A stretch of DNA of 37,740 nt from Bacteroidota bacterium (lineage in GTDB: Bacteria; Bacteroidota; Bacteroidia; AKYH767-A; JAHEYN01): positions 65,503 to 103,242 of the forward strand of contig JAHEYN010000011.1 in the NCBI GenBank assembly GCA_023251555.1, written 5' to 3'. Positions within the stretch are counted from its first letter, which is position 1, and every line of letters begins with the position of its first letter. Under the pieces are notes generated by a model, which did not search any database, was not told the DNA's origin, and was given only the letters and a program-made list of their open reading frames with translations. Positions 28,747 through 37,740 of this stretch are shown piece by piece. A program made the translations under genes and the position numbers.

Positions 28747-30129
28747 ATGTATTTGAATTACCGGGGGCTTGCCTTTTTAATTTCTCTTTCGTTCACGCTG
28801 CTTCCGTGCATGATTCAGCCGGTATTCTCCCAGGAAGACCACCTCTACCTCGAGATGAGCTTTGCCATTAAAAAAGACAAGAAACCTCTTGAGGGGGCGG
28901 AGATCACAGTTTATAAAGGCAGTGAATTTTTTAAAACAATCACTACCAATAAAACCGGCAGGTTTACTGTTCAGCTTCCGCTAAACGGGGACTTCCTCGT
29001 GGTTGTTTCCAGGGCGGGTTGTATCTCCAAGAAGCTGAGTGTTGAAACAAAGGTCCCCGGCAGGAAAGAAGATAAGGATATTGTATGGATTTATCCTACT
29101 GTCGGTGCTTATACTATGGAACTGTATGAAAAAGTAGAGGCTGTTGCAGGGGGCGAAATTCTTGATAAGCCGGTCGCGAAAATCAATTTTAATGATGATT
29201 TCGGCGACTTTGACTTTGATACCAAATACGCACAGGACCTGAAAGCCGAAATATCAAGGCTAAGTGCGGAGGCAAAGAAAAAACTGATTGAAGAGGCGGA
29301 AAAGAAAGCAAGGGAGGCACAGGTGGAAGCCAAGCGCGAGGCTCTCGGCATTTTGAATGATGTTGCCGAGCAGAAAGCAAAAAAGGCTGACGAGCGCCTT
29401 GTTTCCGAGAATGAGCTGAAAGCCATGCTTCAGTCGAAAGAACTTGCATATGCACATATTGACACGGCGGCTATGTACAGAGCCATTGCCCTCTACCTGG
29501 GCCGTAATCACCAGGAGGGATCAATATCTTCCCCTGATCTCCTGGCCAGGCAGCTTGAAAATATTCACATAACTTTTAAGATGAATCCTGAAACCGGTAA
29601 GCTTGATCTCTTTCTTAACGGGGAAAATGTGCAGGATGATCTGAACAGTATGACTCCGGCTCTGCTTGATCTGGCAAAGAAACTTGCAAGTTCAGAGGAT
29701 GTAAGGGAGAAGGTGAAAGAGGTGCGTGAAAAAGCAGTTGCCGAATATGCAGCCCGCCTTGCTTCTGACAGCGCTCTCCTTATGCCTGAAAAGATATTCA
29801 AGCCTGCCCCGGATACACTTGCGGCCGGAAAAGAAAAAAGATCAGATTCTCCCGCAGACAAAGACACTCTTCCTCCTCCCGGAAAAATTCAGAAGCCTGA
29901 GGTATATTCCGAAGGTGAAACGGAAGAAATCAATACCTTCTTCTCATCACTCCATCTTCTCCGGAAGGAAGCCAACAGTGCAGCAAAAGAGAGGATAAAG
30001 AAGGATGAATTTCCGGAGAAACATACCGTTACCAACCATGAAATTAAATTCGGCGCTATTGGTGAAAATCATGTTACCAGAATGCTTAGTGCTATACTGG
30101 AAGTTGAAAATTCAAGGACTAAAAAATGA
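28747..30129 (+). CDS. Secreted Ig-like/coiled-coil protein with cytidylate-kinase-like segment (A1)
   Basis: A 460-residue protein with a signal peptide (about 1-28, cleavage near VFSQ). Residues 33-120 form a carboxypeptidase-regulatory/Ig-like domain (KPLEGAEITVYKGSEFFKTI, GRFTVQLPLNGDFLVVVS). A conserved joint follows (GGEILDKPVAKINFNDDFGD, 135-154), then a Lys/Glu/Ala-rich coiled coil (about 165-228). Residues 233-330 look like the CMP-binding part of cytidylate kinase: YAHIDTAAMYRAIALYLGRN, then ENIHITFKMNPETGKLDLFL, NGENV, VREKVKEVREK. The P-loop and DGRDIGT motif of the enzyme are absent, so kinase activity is not expected. The tail (HVTRMLSAILEVENSRTKK) matches the end of A2. It overlaps B1 by 4 bp (ATGA). 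Likely periplasmic or surface; possibly a partner of sensor B1. Confidence 0.85.
   Translation: MYLNYRGLAFLISLSFTLLPCMIQPVFSQEDHLYLEMSFAIKKDKKPLEGAEITVYKGSEFFKTITTNKTGRFTVQLPLNGDFLVVVSRAGCISKKLSVETKVPGRKEDKDIVWIYPTVGAYTMELYEKVEAVAGGEILDKPVAKINFNDDFGDFDFDTKYAQDLKAEISRLSAEAKKKLIEEAEKKAREAQVEAKREALGILNDVAEQKAKKADERLVSENELKAMLQSKELAYAHIDTAAMYRAIALYLGRNHQEGSISSPDLLARQLENIHITFKMNPETGKLDLFLNGENVQDDLNSMTPALLDLAKKLASSEDVREKVKEVREKAVAEYAARLASDSALLMPEKIFKPAPDTLAAGKEKRSDSPADKDTLPPPGKIQKPEVYSEGETEEINTFFSSLHLLRKEANSAAKERIKKDEFPEKHTVTNHEIKFGAIGENHVTRMLSAILEVENSRTKK
29443..29736 (+). other. Cytidylate-kinase-like segment inside A1
   Basis: Codons 233-330 of A1. Signature matches to Cmk, from memory of the family: IDTGAMYRA (here IDTAAMYRA), IxITFxxNPETGK, LNGENVxD, and a VREK...REK helix in place of VRxxxVxxQQ. 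In Cmk these lie directly after the P-loop and before DGRDIGT; neither flanking motif is present here. The paralog A2 has no equivalent, so the segment was gained by A1 or lost by A2. Confidence 0.7.
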
Positions 30130-33100
30130 AGCTCATGAAAAAAAATCTGCGCAGATTGTCATCTTTCAGCCTGTTCTTCCTGCTTCAGTTTTATGCCGCG
30201 GCACAGGGAAGGGGATATTCCTACTTCGGAGTGGAGCACGGCCTTCCGCAGTCGAGCATATACAGCCTTGTGCAGGACATGGACGGCAATCTCTGGGCCG
30301 GCACCATGGGCGGGCTTGCGAAGTATAACGGGCAGGGCTTTACTGTTTATACAAAAAGGGATGGCCTGGCAGAAAACTGGATCACATCGTCCCTTTCTGA
30401 CAGCAAGGGAAATATCTGGTTCGGCCACTGGGCGGGAGGACTTTCGAAGTATGATTATGAAAAGAAAAAAATTGAGCCGGTTACGCTCATAAACAGGACA
30501 GCCCTGAAATCCATTCTTTGTATTCTTGAAGGAACCGATGGTTCTCTCTGGCTTGGCACTGATGGAAACGGCATCCTGCACGTAAATACGTCAACGCTTG
30601 TTACCGAAGCTTTTGATTCTGCAGGCAGCCTGGGAGCAAACAAAGTATATACAATCATTAAAGATGCCAGGGGAAGGCTATGGGCGGGAACAGAGTCAGG
30701 TATTGCGTTTCTTGAACCTGGAAGCAGTTCCTGGGAAAAAATTACTGTCAAAGGTCTGAAAGACGAAGTTTCTTCCCTGCTCGAGGGAAATGACGGCAAT
30801 ATATGGGCAGGGACAAAATCCAGCGGGATCTTTGTCTACAGCCCGGCCTCGGAATCCATCACCAGGAAATATACGGAAAAGGACAGCCTGCCTGCATTTC
30901 CCGTGAACCTTCTTTTTACTGATGCCGAAAAAAATATATGGGCAGGAACATACGGCGGAGGCCTCGCGCTTTTCCTTCCCGGCGATGATGTTGTCAAAGA
31001 TGCAAAGAAGAAGGGTAAAAAAGACAGCCGGCATTTCAGGGTTTATTCTACAAGAATAGGCCTCAGCAATAATAAAATACTTTCACTGTTACAGGACAGG
31101 GAAAAAAATATCTGGATAGGAACCAACGTGGGGCTTAACCAGTTTTCTCCTTCTCACTTCGATGTGTACGGTCTTCCTGAAGGCCTCTCAAATGACCTGG
31201 TATGGTCTGTGGCCCAGGATAAAGAAAATAATTTCTGGCTGGGAACAGAGGGCGGGCTGATACGTTTTATCCCCGGAAAGGGAAACGAAGAATCTTCCTT
31301 TAAAAAATTTATTACGGCAAAGTCCTATACCAATGCGGTATTCATTGACAGCAAAGGGATGATATGGGTGAGCAACTGGGGCGAAGGAGTTAGCCTCCTT
31401 GACCCCGGCACTTCAAAAATTAAAAGGTTTACAAAGAAAGAAGGCCTGCCCACTAATGATGTATATGCCATTGCGGAGGATAAGGATGGGAATATCTGGT
31501 TTGGCACGGATAAAGGCGGGGTGGCAAAATACGACCCGCATGCTTCTAAATCGAAATTTAGAATTTTTGATATCAAAGATGGTTTCAGGAGCAACCGTGT
31601 GTTCACCATTTTCTCCGATGCAGGAGGCCGCCTCTGGTTCGGAACACTTGGTGGCTACCTCACTGTTTATGACGGCACTTCCTTTAAAACACTCGACGAT
31701 AAGGCCGGCCTGAAAAACCAGTTCATAATATCCCTTACCGGTGATAAGAAGGGAAATCTCTGGATTGGAACTTATGGCGGAGGCCTTTATGAATACGACG
31801 GAAAAGTTTTCCAGCAATATGACATTGCCGACGGAACCAGTTCAAATTCCGCCTATTCTCTCGCTTCCGATGATGAGGATAACCTCTGGATAGGTGCCAA
31901 TATGGGTGTGGATAAATTTATTCATAACGGGGAATACAGGTTCATTCATTTCAGTAAAGACGAGGGTTTTGGAGGCATTGAGGCGAATCCCAATGCTGTA
32001 TGCATGGATAATAAAGGGGATATCTGGTTCGGTACCATCCTCGGGGCTGTCAGGTATAAGGGAAAAAATGATCGCCTCAACAATGCGGAAGCTGTCACGC
32101 AGATCACTTCGGTGCAGCTCTTCTATAAAGACAGCATGATTCCCCAGGGCTCTGCTCTCAGCTACAGCCAGAACCACCTTACCTTCAGGTTTGTCGGCAT
32201 AAGCCTGACCAACCCGAAGAAAGTCCGCTACCAGTATATGATGAAAGGAGTTGATAAGGATTGGTCCCCCCTGCACACCGAAAGTTATGCATCCTATCCC
32301 GACCTTTCCCCGGGAACATACACCTTCCTCCTGCGCTCTGCCAACAATGACGGGGTATGGAACAAAGAACCCGTTACATTCTCCTTTATCATTACCCCTC
32401 CATTTTGGAAGACCAGGACATTTTATGTGCTTTTGGCCCTTGTCCTGCTTGCATCCGGATACGGGGTTGTTCAGCTGAGACTAAGGAAGATCAGGAAAGA
32501 GAAGATGGTTCTTGAGCAGAAGGTGAAGGAGCGCACGGAAGAGATTGCTATCAAGAATATGCAGCTCGAAGAGAAAAACAAGGATATCACCGACAGTATC
32601 AATTATGCTAAACGAATACAGGATGCCATACTTCCCCTCAGGGAGGAAATTGTGAAGGTACTCCCTGATTCTTTTATCCTTTATAAGCCCCGTGATATTG
32701 TGAGCGGCGATTTTTACTGGTATTTTCACCAGGAAAATAAAATCCTGATAGCCGCTGTGGATTGCACCGGTCATGGTGTTCCCGGAGCTTTCATGTCAAT
32801 GATCGGGAATGAAATACTCAACCATATTGTTATTGAAAAGAGAATCACTGACCCTGCGGAAATTCTCAACAACCTCCACGAAGGAGTAAGAGTAGCTCTC
32901 CGCCAGGGTGCCGGTTCCGCCGAGGCAAGAGATGGAATGGACATTTCTCTTTGTGCCATTGATAAGGAAAGGAATACCGTGAGCTATGCCGGTGCCAACC
33001 GTCCGCTCTGGATCCTCAGGCCTGATCGAAGCAACGGGCAAACCCATTATCAGCTGACAGAAGTAAAAGGCGATAAATTTCCAATCGGCGGGATACAGAC

Positions 33101-33362
33101 GGAAGAACGGAGATTTTTCCGGTCCAACAGTATCAGCATTTCACCGGGCGACAGCATTTATCTTTTCACAGATGGATTTGCCGACCAGTTCGGAGGAGAG
33201 AAGGGAAAAAAGTTTATGGCCAAACGGTTCCAGCAAACGCTTGCAGATGCACAGCAAATGAGCATGAAGGAACAGGCATCCTTCCTGGAAAATTCTATCG
33301 TGGAATGGAAGGGCGGCCTGGAACAGGTGGATGATATTCTTGTAATAGGCGTACGTTTCTGA
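30126..33362 (+). CDS. Transmembrane propeller sensor with SpoIIE/PP2C phosphatase output (B1)
   Basis: A 1078-residue protein. The signal peptide (about 1-27) is followed by some thirteen to fourteen two-component-regulator propeller repeats (about 30-650; DxxGNLWxGTxGGLxKYNGQGFTVYTKRDGL) building two periplasmic propellers. Next come a Y_Y_Y domain (about 700-760, YQYMMKGVDKDWSPL), a membrane helix (about 763-783), a coiled coil ending in KDITDSINYAKRIQDAILP, and a SpoIIE-type PP2C phosphatase (about 846-1078). Metal and catalytic motifs are intact: SGDFYW, DCTGHGVPGAFMSM (from 879), DGMDISL, LFTDGFADQ and a final VDDIL. Instead of the histidine kinase of hybrid two-component systems, the output is a Ser/Thr phosphatase that would act on an anti-sigma antagonist or similar. 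It overlaps A1 by 4 bp and A2 by 1 bp. Confidence 0.93.
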   Translation: MKLMKKNLRRLSSFSLFFLLQFYAAAQGRGYSYFGVEHGLPQSSIYSLVQDMDGNLWAGTMGGLAKYNGQGFTVYTKRDGLAENWITSSLSDSKGNIWFGHWAGGLSKYDYEKKKIEPVTLINRTALKSILCILEGTDGSLWLGTDGNGILHVNTSTLVTEAFDSAGSLGANKVYTIIKDARGRLWAGTESGIAFLEPGSSSWEKITVKGLKDEVSSLLEGNDGNIWAGTKSSGIFVYSPASESITRKYTEKDSLPAFPVNLLFTDAEKNIWAGTYGGGLALFLPGDDVVKDAKKKGKKDSRHFRVYSTRIGLSNNKILSLLQDREKNIWIGTNVGLNQFSPSHFDVYGLPEGLSNDLVWSVAQDKENNFWLGTEGGLIRFIPGKGNEESSFKKFITAKSYTNAVFIDSKGMIWVSNWGEGVSLLDPGTSKIKRFTKKEGLPTNDVYAIAEDKDGNIWFGTDKGGVAKYDPHASKSKFRIFDIKDGFRSNRVFTIFSDAGGRLWFGTLGGYLTVYDGTSFKTLDDKAGLKNQFIISLTGDKKGNLWIGTYGGGLYEYDGKVFQQYDIADGTSSNSAYSLASDDEDNLWIGANMGVDKFIHNGEYRFIHFSKDEGFGGIEANPNAVCMDNKGDIWFGTILGAVRYKGKNDRLNNAEAVTQITSVQLFYKDSMIPQGSALSYSQNHLTFRFVGISLTNPKKVRYQYMMKGVDKDWSPLHTESYASYPDLSPGTYTFLLRSANNDGVWNKEPVTFSFIITPPFWKTRTFYVLLALVLLASGYGVVQLRLRKIRKEKMVLEQKVKERTEEIAIKNMQLEEKNKDITDSINYAKRIQDAILPLREEIVKVLPDSFILYKPRDIVSGDFYWYFHQENKILIAAVDCTGHGVPGAFMSMIGNEILNHIVIEKRITDPAEILNNLHEGVRVALRQGAGSAEARDGMDISLCAIDKERNTVSYAGANRPLWILRPDRSNGQTHYQLTEVKGDKFPIGGIQTEERRFFRSNSISISPGDSIYLFTDGFADQFGGEKGKKFMAKRFQQTLADAQQMSMKEQASFLENSIVEWKGGLEQVDDILVIGVRF

Positions 33363-34456
33363 TGACTCCTGCCTTTAATAAATACCTGCTTTCGCTCCTG
33401 CTGCTTTTTATGCTTTTGCACCCGGGGATTTCCCCTGCACAGAAAAAGTTCAAGCTTATGCTTACGATAAAAGTTGAAAAAGATGACCATCCCCTCGAAG
33501 GAGCAATACTTACAGGGGCAAGCGGATCAAGGGTGTTTTTTGAGCAGCCTTCTTACAATACAGGACTGGTATATATAGATCTGAATCTGAACGGAGAATA
33601 TGAGCTTTCTGTATCCAGTCCACATTGTATCACAAAGAAAATCTCTGTTTCCACTAAACTTCCTCCAAGGAAGAATAACTCCGATTATGAATTTCCGGTT
33701 ATTCCTATTGTCTTGTTTGAAAAAGTTCCGGGAGGCGCTGCCGGTGCCGAAATACTGAACAAGCCCGTATTGAAAATTTCCTTTGACGAAAAGGTAGGGG
33801 AGTTTACCTACGATAAGGCTTACTCCGAAGAAATCAAAAAACAGGTTGCCAGCCTTTCTGCTGCTGACAGGGCTAAAATGCTTGCAGAAGCGGAGGCAAA
33901 AGCAAGAGGAGATATTGAAAAAAAGCAGAAAGCTATTGCTGATTCTCTCTCACGGTCGGCAGCAGAGAATGAGAAAAAAAAGAAAGAGGCTGAAGAGAAA
34001 GAAAATTTAAGGATGAGGGCTGAGAAAGAAAAACAGGAAGCAGAAGCTAAAGCCAGGGTGGAAGTGGAACTCAAGGCCTTCCAGGAAGCGGAACGGCTGA
34101 AAAAAGAAGCTCTGGAAAAAATTGTCAGGGAGAATGCTGCAAAGAAAAGCGAAGTGATGGAAAAGATAGAAAGGTCCGTCGCAGAATCCGAGCTGCAAAA
34201 AAAAGAAGAGATTGTTGCCGATGAAAAAGCGGAGGCCCTTAAAAAAGAGGCTGAGGAAAGATCTGTGAGCGAACAGATAAAAATAAAAACAGAAGTGAAT
34301 GCCGAAAATATGGTCCGTGTAAAAAGAGAAGCTGCAAAGGAGGAAGAGATTAGGACCAACCGCCGTGTGAAGTATGAGAAGAACAACCCTGTAACGGAGA
34401 TGCTCCGCATCGCCAGGGAATATGACGATCAGATGAAGCCTCAGCTAAAAAAATAA
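33362..34456 (+). CDS. Secreted Ig-like/coiled-coil protein, paralog of A1 (A2)
   Basis: A 364-residue paralog of the 28747-30129 product. Signal peptide at about 1-26 (LLLLFMLLHPGISPAQ). The Ig-like domain (about 33-120, HPLEGAILTGASGSRVFF, LNLNGEYELSVSSPHCITKK) is followed by the same joint (AEILNKPVLKISFDEKVGEF) and then a long uninterrupted Lys/Glu/Ala coiled coil (about 155-340; LSAADRAKMLAEAEAKARGD). It lacks the cytidylate-kinase-like segment. The C-terminus VTEMLRIAREYDDQMKPQLK corresponds to the A1 end. It starts within the stop of B1 (TGATG) and is followed after 9 bp by B2, so translation is probably coupled. No enzymatic motif is visible. Confidence 0.87.
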   Translation: MTPAFNKYLLSLLLLFMLLHPGISPAQKKFKLMLTIKVEKDDHPLEGAILTGASGSRVFFEQPSYNTGLVYIDLNLNGEYELSVSSPHCITKKISVSTKLPPRKNNSDYEFPVIPIVLFEKVPGGAAGAEILNKPVLKISFDEKVGEFTYDKAYSEEIKKQVASLSAADRAKMLAEAEAKARGDIEKKQKAIADSLSRSAAENEKKKKEAEEKENLRMRAEKEKQEAEAKARVEVELKAFQEAERLKKEALEKIVRENAAKKSEVMEKIERSVAESELQKKEEIVADEKAEALKKEAEERSVSEQIKIKTEVNAENMVRVKREAAKEEEIRTNRRVKYEKNNPVTEMLRIAREYDDQMKPQLKK

Positions 34457-34465
34457 ATTAGTACC

Positions 34466-37400
34466 ATGAAAAAAATCCTTACTATTTCCTTTCCGTTCCT
34501 TGCAGCTCTCCTGCTGCCGGTATTCTCCTCCGCCCAGAGCGCTAATTTTATTTATTTCGGTACAGAACAGGGTCTCCCCCAGTCGGGCATACAGAAAATC
34601 CTCCAGGACAAGGAGGGGAACCTCTGGATGGGTACAATGGCGGGTGCTGCACGCTACAACGGATCCCAGTTCAGGAATTTCACGAAAAAAGACGGGCTGG
34701 CAGAAAACTGGGTTACTTCCATGTGCATGGACAGGAAAGGTAATATATGGCTCGGGCATTGGGCCGGAGGGATTTCGGTGTATGACGCCTCTTCCGAAAA
34801 ATTCAGGGTTTTTACCGTACCCGGCGTTACGATATACAAGACGATATCTTCCATCATGGAAGATTCTTCAGGCACCATCTGGTTTGGCACAGAAGGAAGC
34901 GGTGTTGCAAGGTATATCCCCGATTCAACGGGACGCTCTGCGGCTTCTCCTGGCAGCTTCTCGCTTATTAGCCAGAAGGACGGGCTGAGCGGGAATAACA
35001 TATATGATATCGTCCAGGGAAGATCCGGCGAGGTTTGGTTCGCAACCGAAAACGGAATTACAAAATATTTTCAACATTCCTTTCAGCATTTTGGGATAAA
35101 GGATGGTGTTCCGGGCGGGGAAGTTACGGCTCTCTTTTCTGATAAAAGCAATATGCTTTGGATAGGAACAAGAGATTCCGGCGCGTTCAAATATGATCCC
35201 GAAACACAAAAAACGATTAAAAGGCTTTCCCAGAGAAACGGGCTGTATTCCAACCATATCAAAGTTATTTATGAAGACAGGGACGATAATCTCTGGTTCG
35301 GGACATACGGAGGAGGAGTGGCCAAGTACACTCCTTCCTATGAAGGAAACTCTATCCTCAGGAACCCGGTCAGAGTCTTTGGAGTGAACGAGGGCCTCAG
35401 CAACAATAAGGTTCTTTCCATCCTTGAGGACAGGGAAGATAATATCTGGATAGGAACCTATATCGGGCTCAACCAGTACCGTGCCGAAATATTCGAAACC
35501 TACAGCATGCAGGAAGGGTTGAAAAGCAGCCTTATCTGGTCGCTTACCCAGGACAGAAATAAAAATTTATGGATAGGGACAGAGGCCGGGTTGGTAAAAT
35601 ACTCACAGGATGGAGAGAAAAAAGGAAAAGCGTTTACCGTCTTCAACAATACTAAGAACGAGGACAATGTGACTGCTGTCTATGAGGACATAGACGGCTT
35701 CATCTGGTACAGTGTATGGGGCAGCGGGGTGAGAAGGATGAACCCCCTCAGCGGTAAAACGGAAACATTTAACACACAGAACGGTCTCCCGAGTAACAAT
35801 ATATATTCCATTAACTCGGATATGAGCGAAGATATCTGGTTCGCCACTGATAAAAACGGTGTATGCAAATACAACCTGAGATCATCAACATATCAATATT
35901 ACACTTCTGCCGAAGGACTTGGCAGCAACAGGGTATACACTATTTTTAAAGACAGCAGGAACAATCTCTGGTTTGGCACGCTCGGCGGCTACATATCAGT
36001 ATTTGACGGGAAGGGTTTTCATACTTTCAATGAAAAGGAAGGCCTCATGCATTCTTTTGTGCTCTGCATCACGGAAGATAAAAAGGGCAATATCTGGATG
36101 GGCACCTACGGGGGCGGCTTGTATAAATACGACGGCCGTATGTTTAAGAACTACGACATCACTGACGGGATGAACTCCGACACTCCTTACCTCCTCGTAT
36201 GCGACAATGACAACAATATATGGATAGGCACCAGCATTGGTATAGATAAATTCAACCCTGACAAGGGGTCATTTACCCATTATGGAAAAGAGGAAGGCTT
36301 CCTCGGTATTGAGGTTAACCCCAATGCCATCTGTAAAGATGTTTCTGGAAATCTCTGGTTCGGGACAATTGCCGGCCTGGTGAAATACGACCCGCGGAAG
36401 GACAGGATAAATACCATCGAACCCCTTACACGCTTTACCAGTCTTAAGATACTGTATAAAGATACCAGGATGAATCCCGGAACTTCTTTCAATTATGACC
36501 AGAACCATCTCACCTTTGATTATATCGGAATAAGCCTTACCAATCCCAAAAATGTACGTTATCAGTACATGCTCGAAGGTCTTGATAAAACATGGTCGCC
36601 GGGAACCCAGGTTCATTCGGTAACTTACCCCAATATCCCGCCCGGGAAATATTCCTTTCTTGTGAGGGCCTGCAATAACGACGGCATCTGGAACAGCCGG
36701 CCCGTGAGCTATTCGTTTGTCATTATCCCGCCCATTTGGAAAAGATCATGGTTTTACTTTGTCGCCGCACTTATACTTATTTCTTCGGTGTACGGGCTGA
36801 TACAGCTTCGCACCCGTTCCATCAAGAAAGAAAAAAGGATCCTGGAAGCGAGGGTGAAAGAACGTACGGAAGAGATTGCTCAGAAAAATATGGAACTCGA
36901 AAAACTTTCCATAGTGGCCAGCGAAACGGATAACGCTGTGTTTATCGCCAGCCCTGACGGGGTGATAGAGTGGGTGAATGCAGGATTTACAAAGCTGAGC
37001 GGCTATTCCTTCGAGGATTTTAAAAAGATAAAAGGCGCAACGCTCACCGAGGCCAGCAACAATCCGGACCTTGCGGAAGCAATCCACAGAAGTGTGAAGG
37101 AAAGAAAATCAATAACCTATGAAACCATAAACACTCACCGCGACGGCAGGAAGTTCTGGGCGCAGTCAACCCTGACCCCCATCTTTTCGGAGTCTGGAAA
37201 ACTCACAAAGCTGGTAGTTATTGATGCCGATATCACGGAGCTTAAGGAGGCGGAGTACCAGATCAAGCAGAAGAACAAAGATATCACCGACAGTATTGTT
37301 TATGCCAAGCGCATACAGGAAGCCATTCTTCCGGGGAGAGGCGATATTGCCAAAGGATTCTCCGACTTTTTTATATACTACAGGCCAAGAGATATTGTGA

Positions 37401-37740
37401 GCGGTGATTTTTACTGGTTTGCGAAACAGTTCGGGAAGGTGCTTATTGCTTCGGTGGATTGCACAGGGCACGGGGTTCCCGGTGCTTTCATGTCCATGAT
37501 AGGAAATGACATGCTTAATCAGATCGTGAAGGTGAAGGGAATTATTGAGCCTGCCGCTGTTCTGAACAGCCTCAACGAAAGTATACGCCATGCCCTGAAA
37601 CAGGATAAGAAAGAATCGGAAACGTCTGATGGGATGGATATTGCGTTATGCCTGTTTGACAAATCAAGCAACAGGCTTGAATATGCCGGTGCACACCGGC
37701 CGCTTTACCTGATAAGGAACAAGCAGCTGCAGGTTATCAA
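34466..37740 (+). CDS. Transmembrane propeller sensor with PAS and SpoIIE/PP2C output, 3'-truncated (B2)
   Basis: The frame is open from the ATG at 34466 to the window end without a stop (1091 full codons seen). The signal peptide (MKKILTISFPFLAALLLPVF) is followed by propeller repeats closely similar to B1 (GNLWMGTMAGAARYNGSQF, GLAENWVTSM), a Y_Y_Y domain (about 690-755, YQYMLEGLDKTWSPG) and a membrane helix (about 760-780). Unlike B1, a PAS domain lies at about 813-925 (DNAVFIASPDGVIEWVNAGF, RDGRKFWAQSTLTPIF). Then come the shared KDITDSIVYAKRIQEAILPG helix and a SpoIIE phosphatase domain (SGDFYW, DCTGHGVPGAFMSM, DGMDIAL) whose last motifs (TDG, DD) lie beyond the window. It is the fourth gene of the A1-B1-A2-B2 run. 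Confidence 0.92.
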   Translation, partial: MKKILTISFPFLAALLLPVFSSAQSANFIYFGTEQGLPQSGIQKILQDKEGNLWMGTMAGAARYNGSQFRNFTKKDGLAENWVTSMCMDRKGNIWLGHWAGGISVYDASSEKFRVFTVPGVTIYKTISSIMEDSSGTIWFGTEGSGVARYIPDSTGRSAASPGSFSLISQKDGLSGNNIYDIVQGRSGEVWFATENGITKYFQHSFQHFGIKDGVPGGEVTALFSDKSNMLWIGTRDSGAFKYDPETQKTIKRLSQRNGLYSNHIKVIYEDRDDNLWFGTYGGGVAKYTPSYEGNSILRNPVRVFGVNEGLSNNKVLSILEDREDNIWIGTYIGLNQYRAEIFETYSMQEGLKSSLIWSLTQDRNKNLWIGTEAGLVKYSQDGEKKGKAFTVFNNTKNEDNVTAVYEDIDGFIWYSVWGSGVRRMNPLSGKTETFNTQNGLPSNNIYSINSDMSEDIWFATDKNGVCKYNLRSSTYQYYTSAEGLGSNRVYTIFKDSRNNLWFGTLGGYISVFDGKGFHTFNEKEGLMHSFVLCITEDKKGNIWMGTYGGGLYKYDGRMFKNYDITDGMNSDTPYLLVCDNDNNIWIGTSIGIDKFNPDKGSFTHYGKEEGFLGIEVNPNAICKDVSGNLWFGTIAGLVKYDPRKDRINTIEPLTRFTSLKILYKDTRMNPGTSFNYDQNHLTFDYIGISLTNPKNVRYQYMLEGLDKTWSPGTQVHSVTYPNIPPGKYSFLVRACNNDGIWNSRPVSYSFVIIPPIWKRSWFYFVAALILISSVYGLIQLRTRSIKKEKRILEARVKERTEEIAQKNMELEKLSIVASETDNAVFIASPDGVIEWVNAGFTKLSGYSFEDFKKIKGATLTEASNNPDLAEAIHRSVKERKSITYETINTHRDGRKFWAQSTLTPIFSESGKLTKLVVIDADITELKEAEYQIKQKNKDITDSIVYAKRIQEAILPGRGDIAKGFSDFFIYYRPRDIVSGDFYWFAKQFGKVLIASVDCTGHGVPGAFMSMIGNDMLNQIVKVKGIIEPAAVLNSLNESIRHALKQDKKESETSDGMDIALCLFDKSSNRLEYAGAHRPLYLIRNKQLQVI

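Follow-up and report, generated by a model that had tools for sequence, protein, structure and literature searches.

Gene organization of the A1-B1-A2-B2 locus

The window, i.e. the whole stretch of 37,740 nucleotides that was analysed, harbors a tandem of four genes, A1-B1-A2-B2, all on the + strand. The features are the following (evidence in brackets).

28747..30129, +: A1, a 460-aa, probably exported protein with a Cmk-derived segment (ORF)
28747..28833, +: A1 residues 1-29, signal-peptide-like N-terminus, putative cleavage after FSQ (hydropathy)
28873..29064, +: A1 residues 43-106, CarboxypepD_reg-like beta-sandwich (PF13620, AlphaFold2 strands)
29221..29442, +: A1 residues 159-232, long helix or coiled-coil arm (AlphaFold2 model)
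29434..29739, +: A1 residues 230-331, fragment of the Cmk NMP-binding domain (PF02224, TIGR00017, family HMM, Foldseek)
29464..29481, +: retained CMP contacts T240, Y244 and R245 of A1, E. coli Ser36, Tyr40 and Arg41 (alignment)
29704..29706, +: retained CMP contact R320 of A1, E. coli Arg110 (alignment)
29902..30126, +: A1 C-terminal tail, last 75 aa (alignment of three C-termini)
30126..33362, +: B1, Reg_prop propeller / Y_Y_Y / SpoIIE phosphatase (Pfam, ORF)
33362..34456, +: A2, paralogue of A1, coiled coil only, without Cmk segment (39% identity over 168 N-terminal aa)
34466..37738, +: B2, paralogue of B1 with a PAS domain before SpoIIE, running off the window (45% identity to B1; Pfam)

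Stop and start codons overlap between A1 and B1 (ATGA) and between B1 and A2. The proteins of the A-type family are built from a predicted signal peptide, a CarboxypepD_reg domain, a variable spacer and a C-terminal tail. In A1 the hydropathy peaks at 2.14 within the N-terminal 40 residues and at 1.37 in the remainder, and this hydrophobic, signal-peptide-like N-terminus predicts export, in agreement with the exported context that an earlier note on this DNA had claimed for the Cmk-like segment. The N-terminal region of A1 is CarboxypepD_reg-like (PF13620, E 5.6e-7, 30.3 bits, slightly under the cutoff of 32.3) and is accompanied by the conserved DKPVAKI/FDFD stretch. The arm comprising residues 159-232 was modelled by AlphaFold2 as a single helix (pLDDT ~62-96, with the minimum near residue 232). 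The tail motif N-x-[VL]-T-x-[ML]-L is common to A1, A2 and the A-type protein of genome G046, which belongs to another family and whose C-terminal tail is similar to that of A1.

The sensor phosphatase said to lie next to A1 is indeed present, B1 being a Reg_prop/Y_Y_Y/SpoIIE protein encoded directly downstream. B1 and B2 are 45% identical over the sensor part; in B2, but not in B1, Pfam finds a PAS domain that follows the Y_Y_Y/TM region and precedes SpoIIE. The genome as a whole (G000, 2.8 Mb) contains at least 12 B1-like matches (E <= 1e-60) on several contigs; phosphatases of the SpoIIE type are greatly expanded there, and several carry Reg_prop propellers. As in the tandem, an A-type gene is located directly upstream of a B1-like gene in G046, G047, G048 and G053, which represent four other families of Bacteroidia. 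The A-B pairing is thus an old association, and A1 is probably the partner of B1. The A-type proteins of these four genomes share with A1 the N-terminal domain, the variable spacer and the placement of their gene immediately ahead of the B gene. Unlike A1, they carry spacers of coiled coil, of very different length, or of TPR-like type; among all A-type proteins compared, the Cmk segment occurs in A1 only.

The Cmk-derived segment of A1

Our analysis confirms that the A1 segment is a homolog of the NMP-binding domain in bacterial CMP kinase. The earlier note had located a Cmk-like segment at 29443-29736 (residues 233-330), and the family profile match covers residues 230-329. PF02224 (Cytidylate_kin) reaches 29.1 bits on A1 residues 230-331, above its gathering cutoff of 26, in a partial match comprising profile positions 19-110 of 211; TIGR00017 matches residues 231-328 (E 1.4e-9, 38 bits, under the full-length equivalog cutoff of 135.55). 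The genome's own cmk, an ordinary and intact gene of 236 aa on another contig (L002 1171-1881), is 38% identical to the segment (E 1.3e-15), and at the DNA level the two are similar along 220 bases (pairwise E 1e-6). An HMM built from the Cmks of Bacteroidia relatives scores the segment with 59.3 bits, whereas 2000 shuffles of this A1 stretch give ~12 bits at best; together with the Pfam, TIGR00017 and own-cmk matches this identifies the segment as homology and not chance. The best PDB sequence matches of A1 are E. coli CMP kinase structures. The Cmk origin that had been proposed is hence supported by PF02224, TIGR00017, the own cmk and the relatives' HMM, and the suggested profile search, in which the absence of any Cmk match would have counted against the claim, returned PF02224 above its cutoff. 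The motifs named in the note are present, except that DTAAMYR stands in place of the usual DTGAMYR.

The match starts at strand 2 (YKYID) and ends with the helix that bears the conserved VR. The NMP domain of E. coli CMPK comprises Gly37-Leu113, including the CMPK-specific insert Leu63-Gln102 (PMC3813627), so that the A1 segment corresponds to this NMP-binding domain together with the helices at its borders. It resembles bacterial (d)CMP kinase (PF02224, TIGR00017) in this domain with its long-type insert, in the contacts T/S, Y, R and R, and in its predicted fold. It differs from the enzyme in being embedded in another, predictedly exported protein, in the loss of several invariant residues, and in missing the ATP-binding half. 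As the note had stated, A1 lacks the P-loop GxxxxGK[ST], by sequence inspection, and the DGRDxGT motif (DGRDIGT), by sequence and alignment; the LID arginines are likewise absent by sequence and alignment, and neither the LID nor the remaining CORE follows the segment. Because P-loop, CORE and LID are missing, the A1 segment is, on sequence grounds, not a kinase, and CMP phosphorylation is excluded.

In the alignment all four CMP contacts supplied by the NMP domain (S/T, Y, R, R) are kept as T240, Y244, R245 and R320. Their counterparts are Ser36, Tyr40, Arg41 and Arg110 in E. coli (PMC3603445, PMC7259600) and Ser33, Tyr37, Arg38 and Arg107 in Thermus CMPK (PMC7259600). The CMP contacts of CORE and LID (P-loop, R131, D132, R181, D185, R188) are absent from A1. 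Among the Cmks of ~50 Bacteroidia genomes 18 columns are invariant (>=95% conservation), 11 of which are kept in A1. The seven losses (own-Cmk numbering) are A31S, G42A (A1 residue 241), I100L, R101N, V109A, S110K and Q126R, with V109A and S110K depending on the alignment. Retention at invariant columns (11/18) exceeds that at variable columns (25/82; Fisher p 0.03), a modest excess which suggests that the fold is still under some constraint. Given 11/18 columns kept, the three strictly invariant contacts would be retained by chance with a probability of ~0.2, and contact retention is therefore suggestive only.

AlphaFold2 was run on A1 residues 171-360 as a single sequence without alignment. 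The model (mean pLDDT 77; segment mostly 75-92) shows helices and strands in the same succession as the NMP domain, and in the fold comparison that had been proposed, a Foldseek search against PDB, ranks 1-13 were all CMP kinases (probability 1.00; everything else <=0.12). When the full mature A1 was modelled with Cmk rows in the alignment, the segment reached a pLDDT of mostly 85-97, following a 74-residue helix. The models predict that the segment still folds as an NMP-binding subdomain between two helical arms; AlphaFold2 may recognise the Cmk sequence pattern and thereby impose its fold. Autonomous folding is not assured, since the insert of the E. coli NMP domain is normally packed against the CORE (PMC3813627).

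Origin and distribution of the fusion

Both joints of the segment lie within lysine- and glutamate-rich helices and are in frame, and the reading frame is open throughout. Pfam and TIGR profile searches found no Cmk match in A2, which is 96 aa shorter than A1, and the N- and C-termini of the two proteins correspond; this argues for an insertion into the spacer. That orthologs might show only coiled coil at this place had been named as a point against the Cmk claim. The spacers of the relatives are indeed only coiled-coil or TPR-like, which identifies the segment as a lineage-specific insertion, but the segment itself is real in A1.

In a tree of 136 sequences including the A1 segment, the own cmk is the weakly supported partner (86/47) of the segment, whose end branch of 2.59 is ten times the median of 0.24. 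The AU test does not reject a placement with Bacteroidales (p-AU 0.48), and the pairwise scores for candidate donors tie. These results place the donor within Bacteroidia and no closer; it was perhaps the genome's own cmk. The third-position codon G+C of the segment (0.44) lies between those of its two flanks and gives no sign of recent import.

The search for orthologs with the same fusion, likewise suggested before, had a negative outcome: the 100 nearest genomes yielded no other fusion, 42 genomes of the order no second Cmk-like fragment of the A1 kind, 395 Bacteroidia genomes no further fusion, and GTDB r220 none among the matches listed, the best 80 loci all being complete Cmks. The capture of Cmk sequence in A1 is rare and known from one genome so far. 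Four genomes with two Cmk matches each were rejected as candidates: in G133, G218 and G297 the matches are split contig ends, and G377 has an ordinary second cmk. The latter (L177, G377:C95:134901-135203) is complete and strongly diverged (end branch 1.73) and is found beside an ordinary one. Cmk sequence is joined to another protein in one chain also in the PanC-Cmk (NF010004) and Cmk-Der (NF007071) fusions; in contrast to the A1 fragment, these contain the whole Cmk enzyme according to their family models. A non-exhaustive literature search for an extracellular Cmk fusion or an extracytoplasmic nucleotide-kinase sensor found nothing relevant.

Possible roles of the captured segment

We propose the following scenario. 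A cmk stretch coding for the NMP-binding domain would have been copied in frame from a Bacteroidia donor into the spacer of A1, a tolerant coiled-coil spacer in an exported partner whose gene lies upstream of a Reg_prop/SpoIIE sensor phosphatase. The segment has diverged far from any cmk, and it would now most likely serve the A1-B1 pair as a structural spacer or as an interaction module. The scenario builds on the observed homology and its boundaries, the lack of catalytic parts, the fold prediction, the context of the family and the single-genome distribution; the export of A1, its partnership with B1 and the structural role of the segment are presumed. That a folded, non-catalytic subdomain was captured and reused in this manner we consider somewhat probable; the occurrence of the fusion in one genome only counts against it.

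The main rival, which we regard as rather unlikely, is a neutral passenger, i.e. a fragment captured in frame, tolerated in the spacer and drifting without function or defined fold. Such a passenger is suggested by the one-genome distribution, the very long branch, the loss of invariant residues and the high variability of the family's spacers. It is contradicted by a frame that is open over the whole segment, by invariant columns kept above the background rate and by the confident single-sequence fold prediction.

Quite improbable, in our judgement, is an extracytoplasmic CMP/CDP-like input module, in which a pyrimidine nucleotide bound via the retained contacts would alter the engagement of the B1 propeller by A1 and so tune the SpoIIE phosphatase. 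All four NMP-domain contacts are kept, in the open complex of Thermus CMPK the CMP is held by Tyr37, Arg38 and Arg107 of the NMP domain alone (PMC7259600), and A-type genes adjoin B-type sensor genes in other families as well. However, the CORE and LID contacts and the equivalents of the invariant G42, R101, S110 and Q126 are gone, chance may account for the three strictly invariant contacts, and the other A proteins are without the domain. It is just as doubtful that the NMP-binding domain of a core nucleotide kinase was exapted as an extracytoplasmic pyrimidine-nucleotide sensor feeding a Reg_prop/SpoIIE phosphatase. The occurrence in a single genome and the very long branch agree better with a captured fragment, the alternative also raised in the earlier note, than with nucleotide sensing.

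An assembly chimera joining cmk reads to A1 would be conceivable in a genome assembled in 55 contigs and is nevertheless highly implausible, being rejected by the divergence of the segment (only 38% identity to the own cmk, and close to no cmk seen) and by the intact frame at both joints. A merely compositional likeness between Cmk and a lysine- and glutamate-rich coiled coil, as the low-complexity surroundings might suggest, is refuted and practically excluded by the profile score against the shuffles, the Pfam match above cutoff, the DNA similarity to the own cmk and the independent fold match.

If the segment folds alone, the captured structural module would cleanly illustrate how a domain can be born by capture: a subdomain otherwise found only inside an enzyme was cut out close to the border of the NMP domain and put to new use in an exported scaffold. 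The variable spacers of sensor partners could then take up unrelated folded modules. If CMP were also bound, A1 would provide, to our knowledge, the first case of a sensor outside the cytoplasm that derives from a nucleotide kinase.

Two further gene neighborhoods were noticed among the sensor and A-type genes. Caspase-like Peptidase_C14 genes adjoin Reg_prop/SpoIIE sensor genes in G046 and G056, from two other Bacteroidia families (L208:3566-5935, - strand; L210:177-1517, + strand), and one of the proteins has TPR repeats. The A-type paralogue common in the order (G000:C16:73124-73708, L188, in the own genome; L181, L185 and L184 in G016, G020 and G029, respectively) adjoins a gene of ~290 aa; this neighbor is HMGL-like in the own genome, and the synteny is unrelated to sensor genes.
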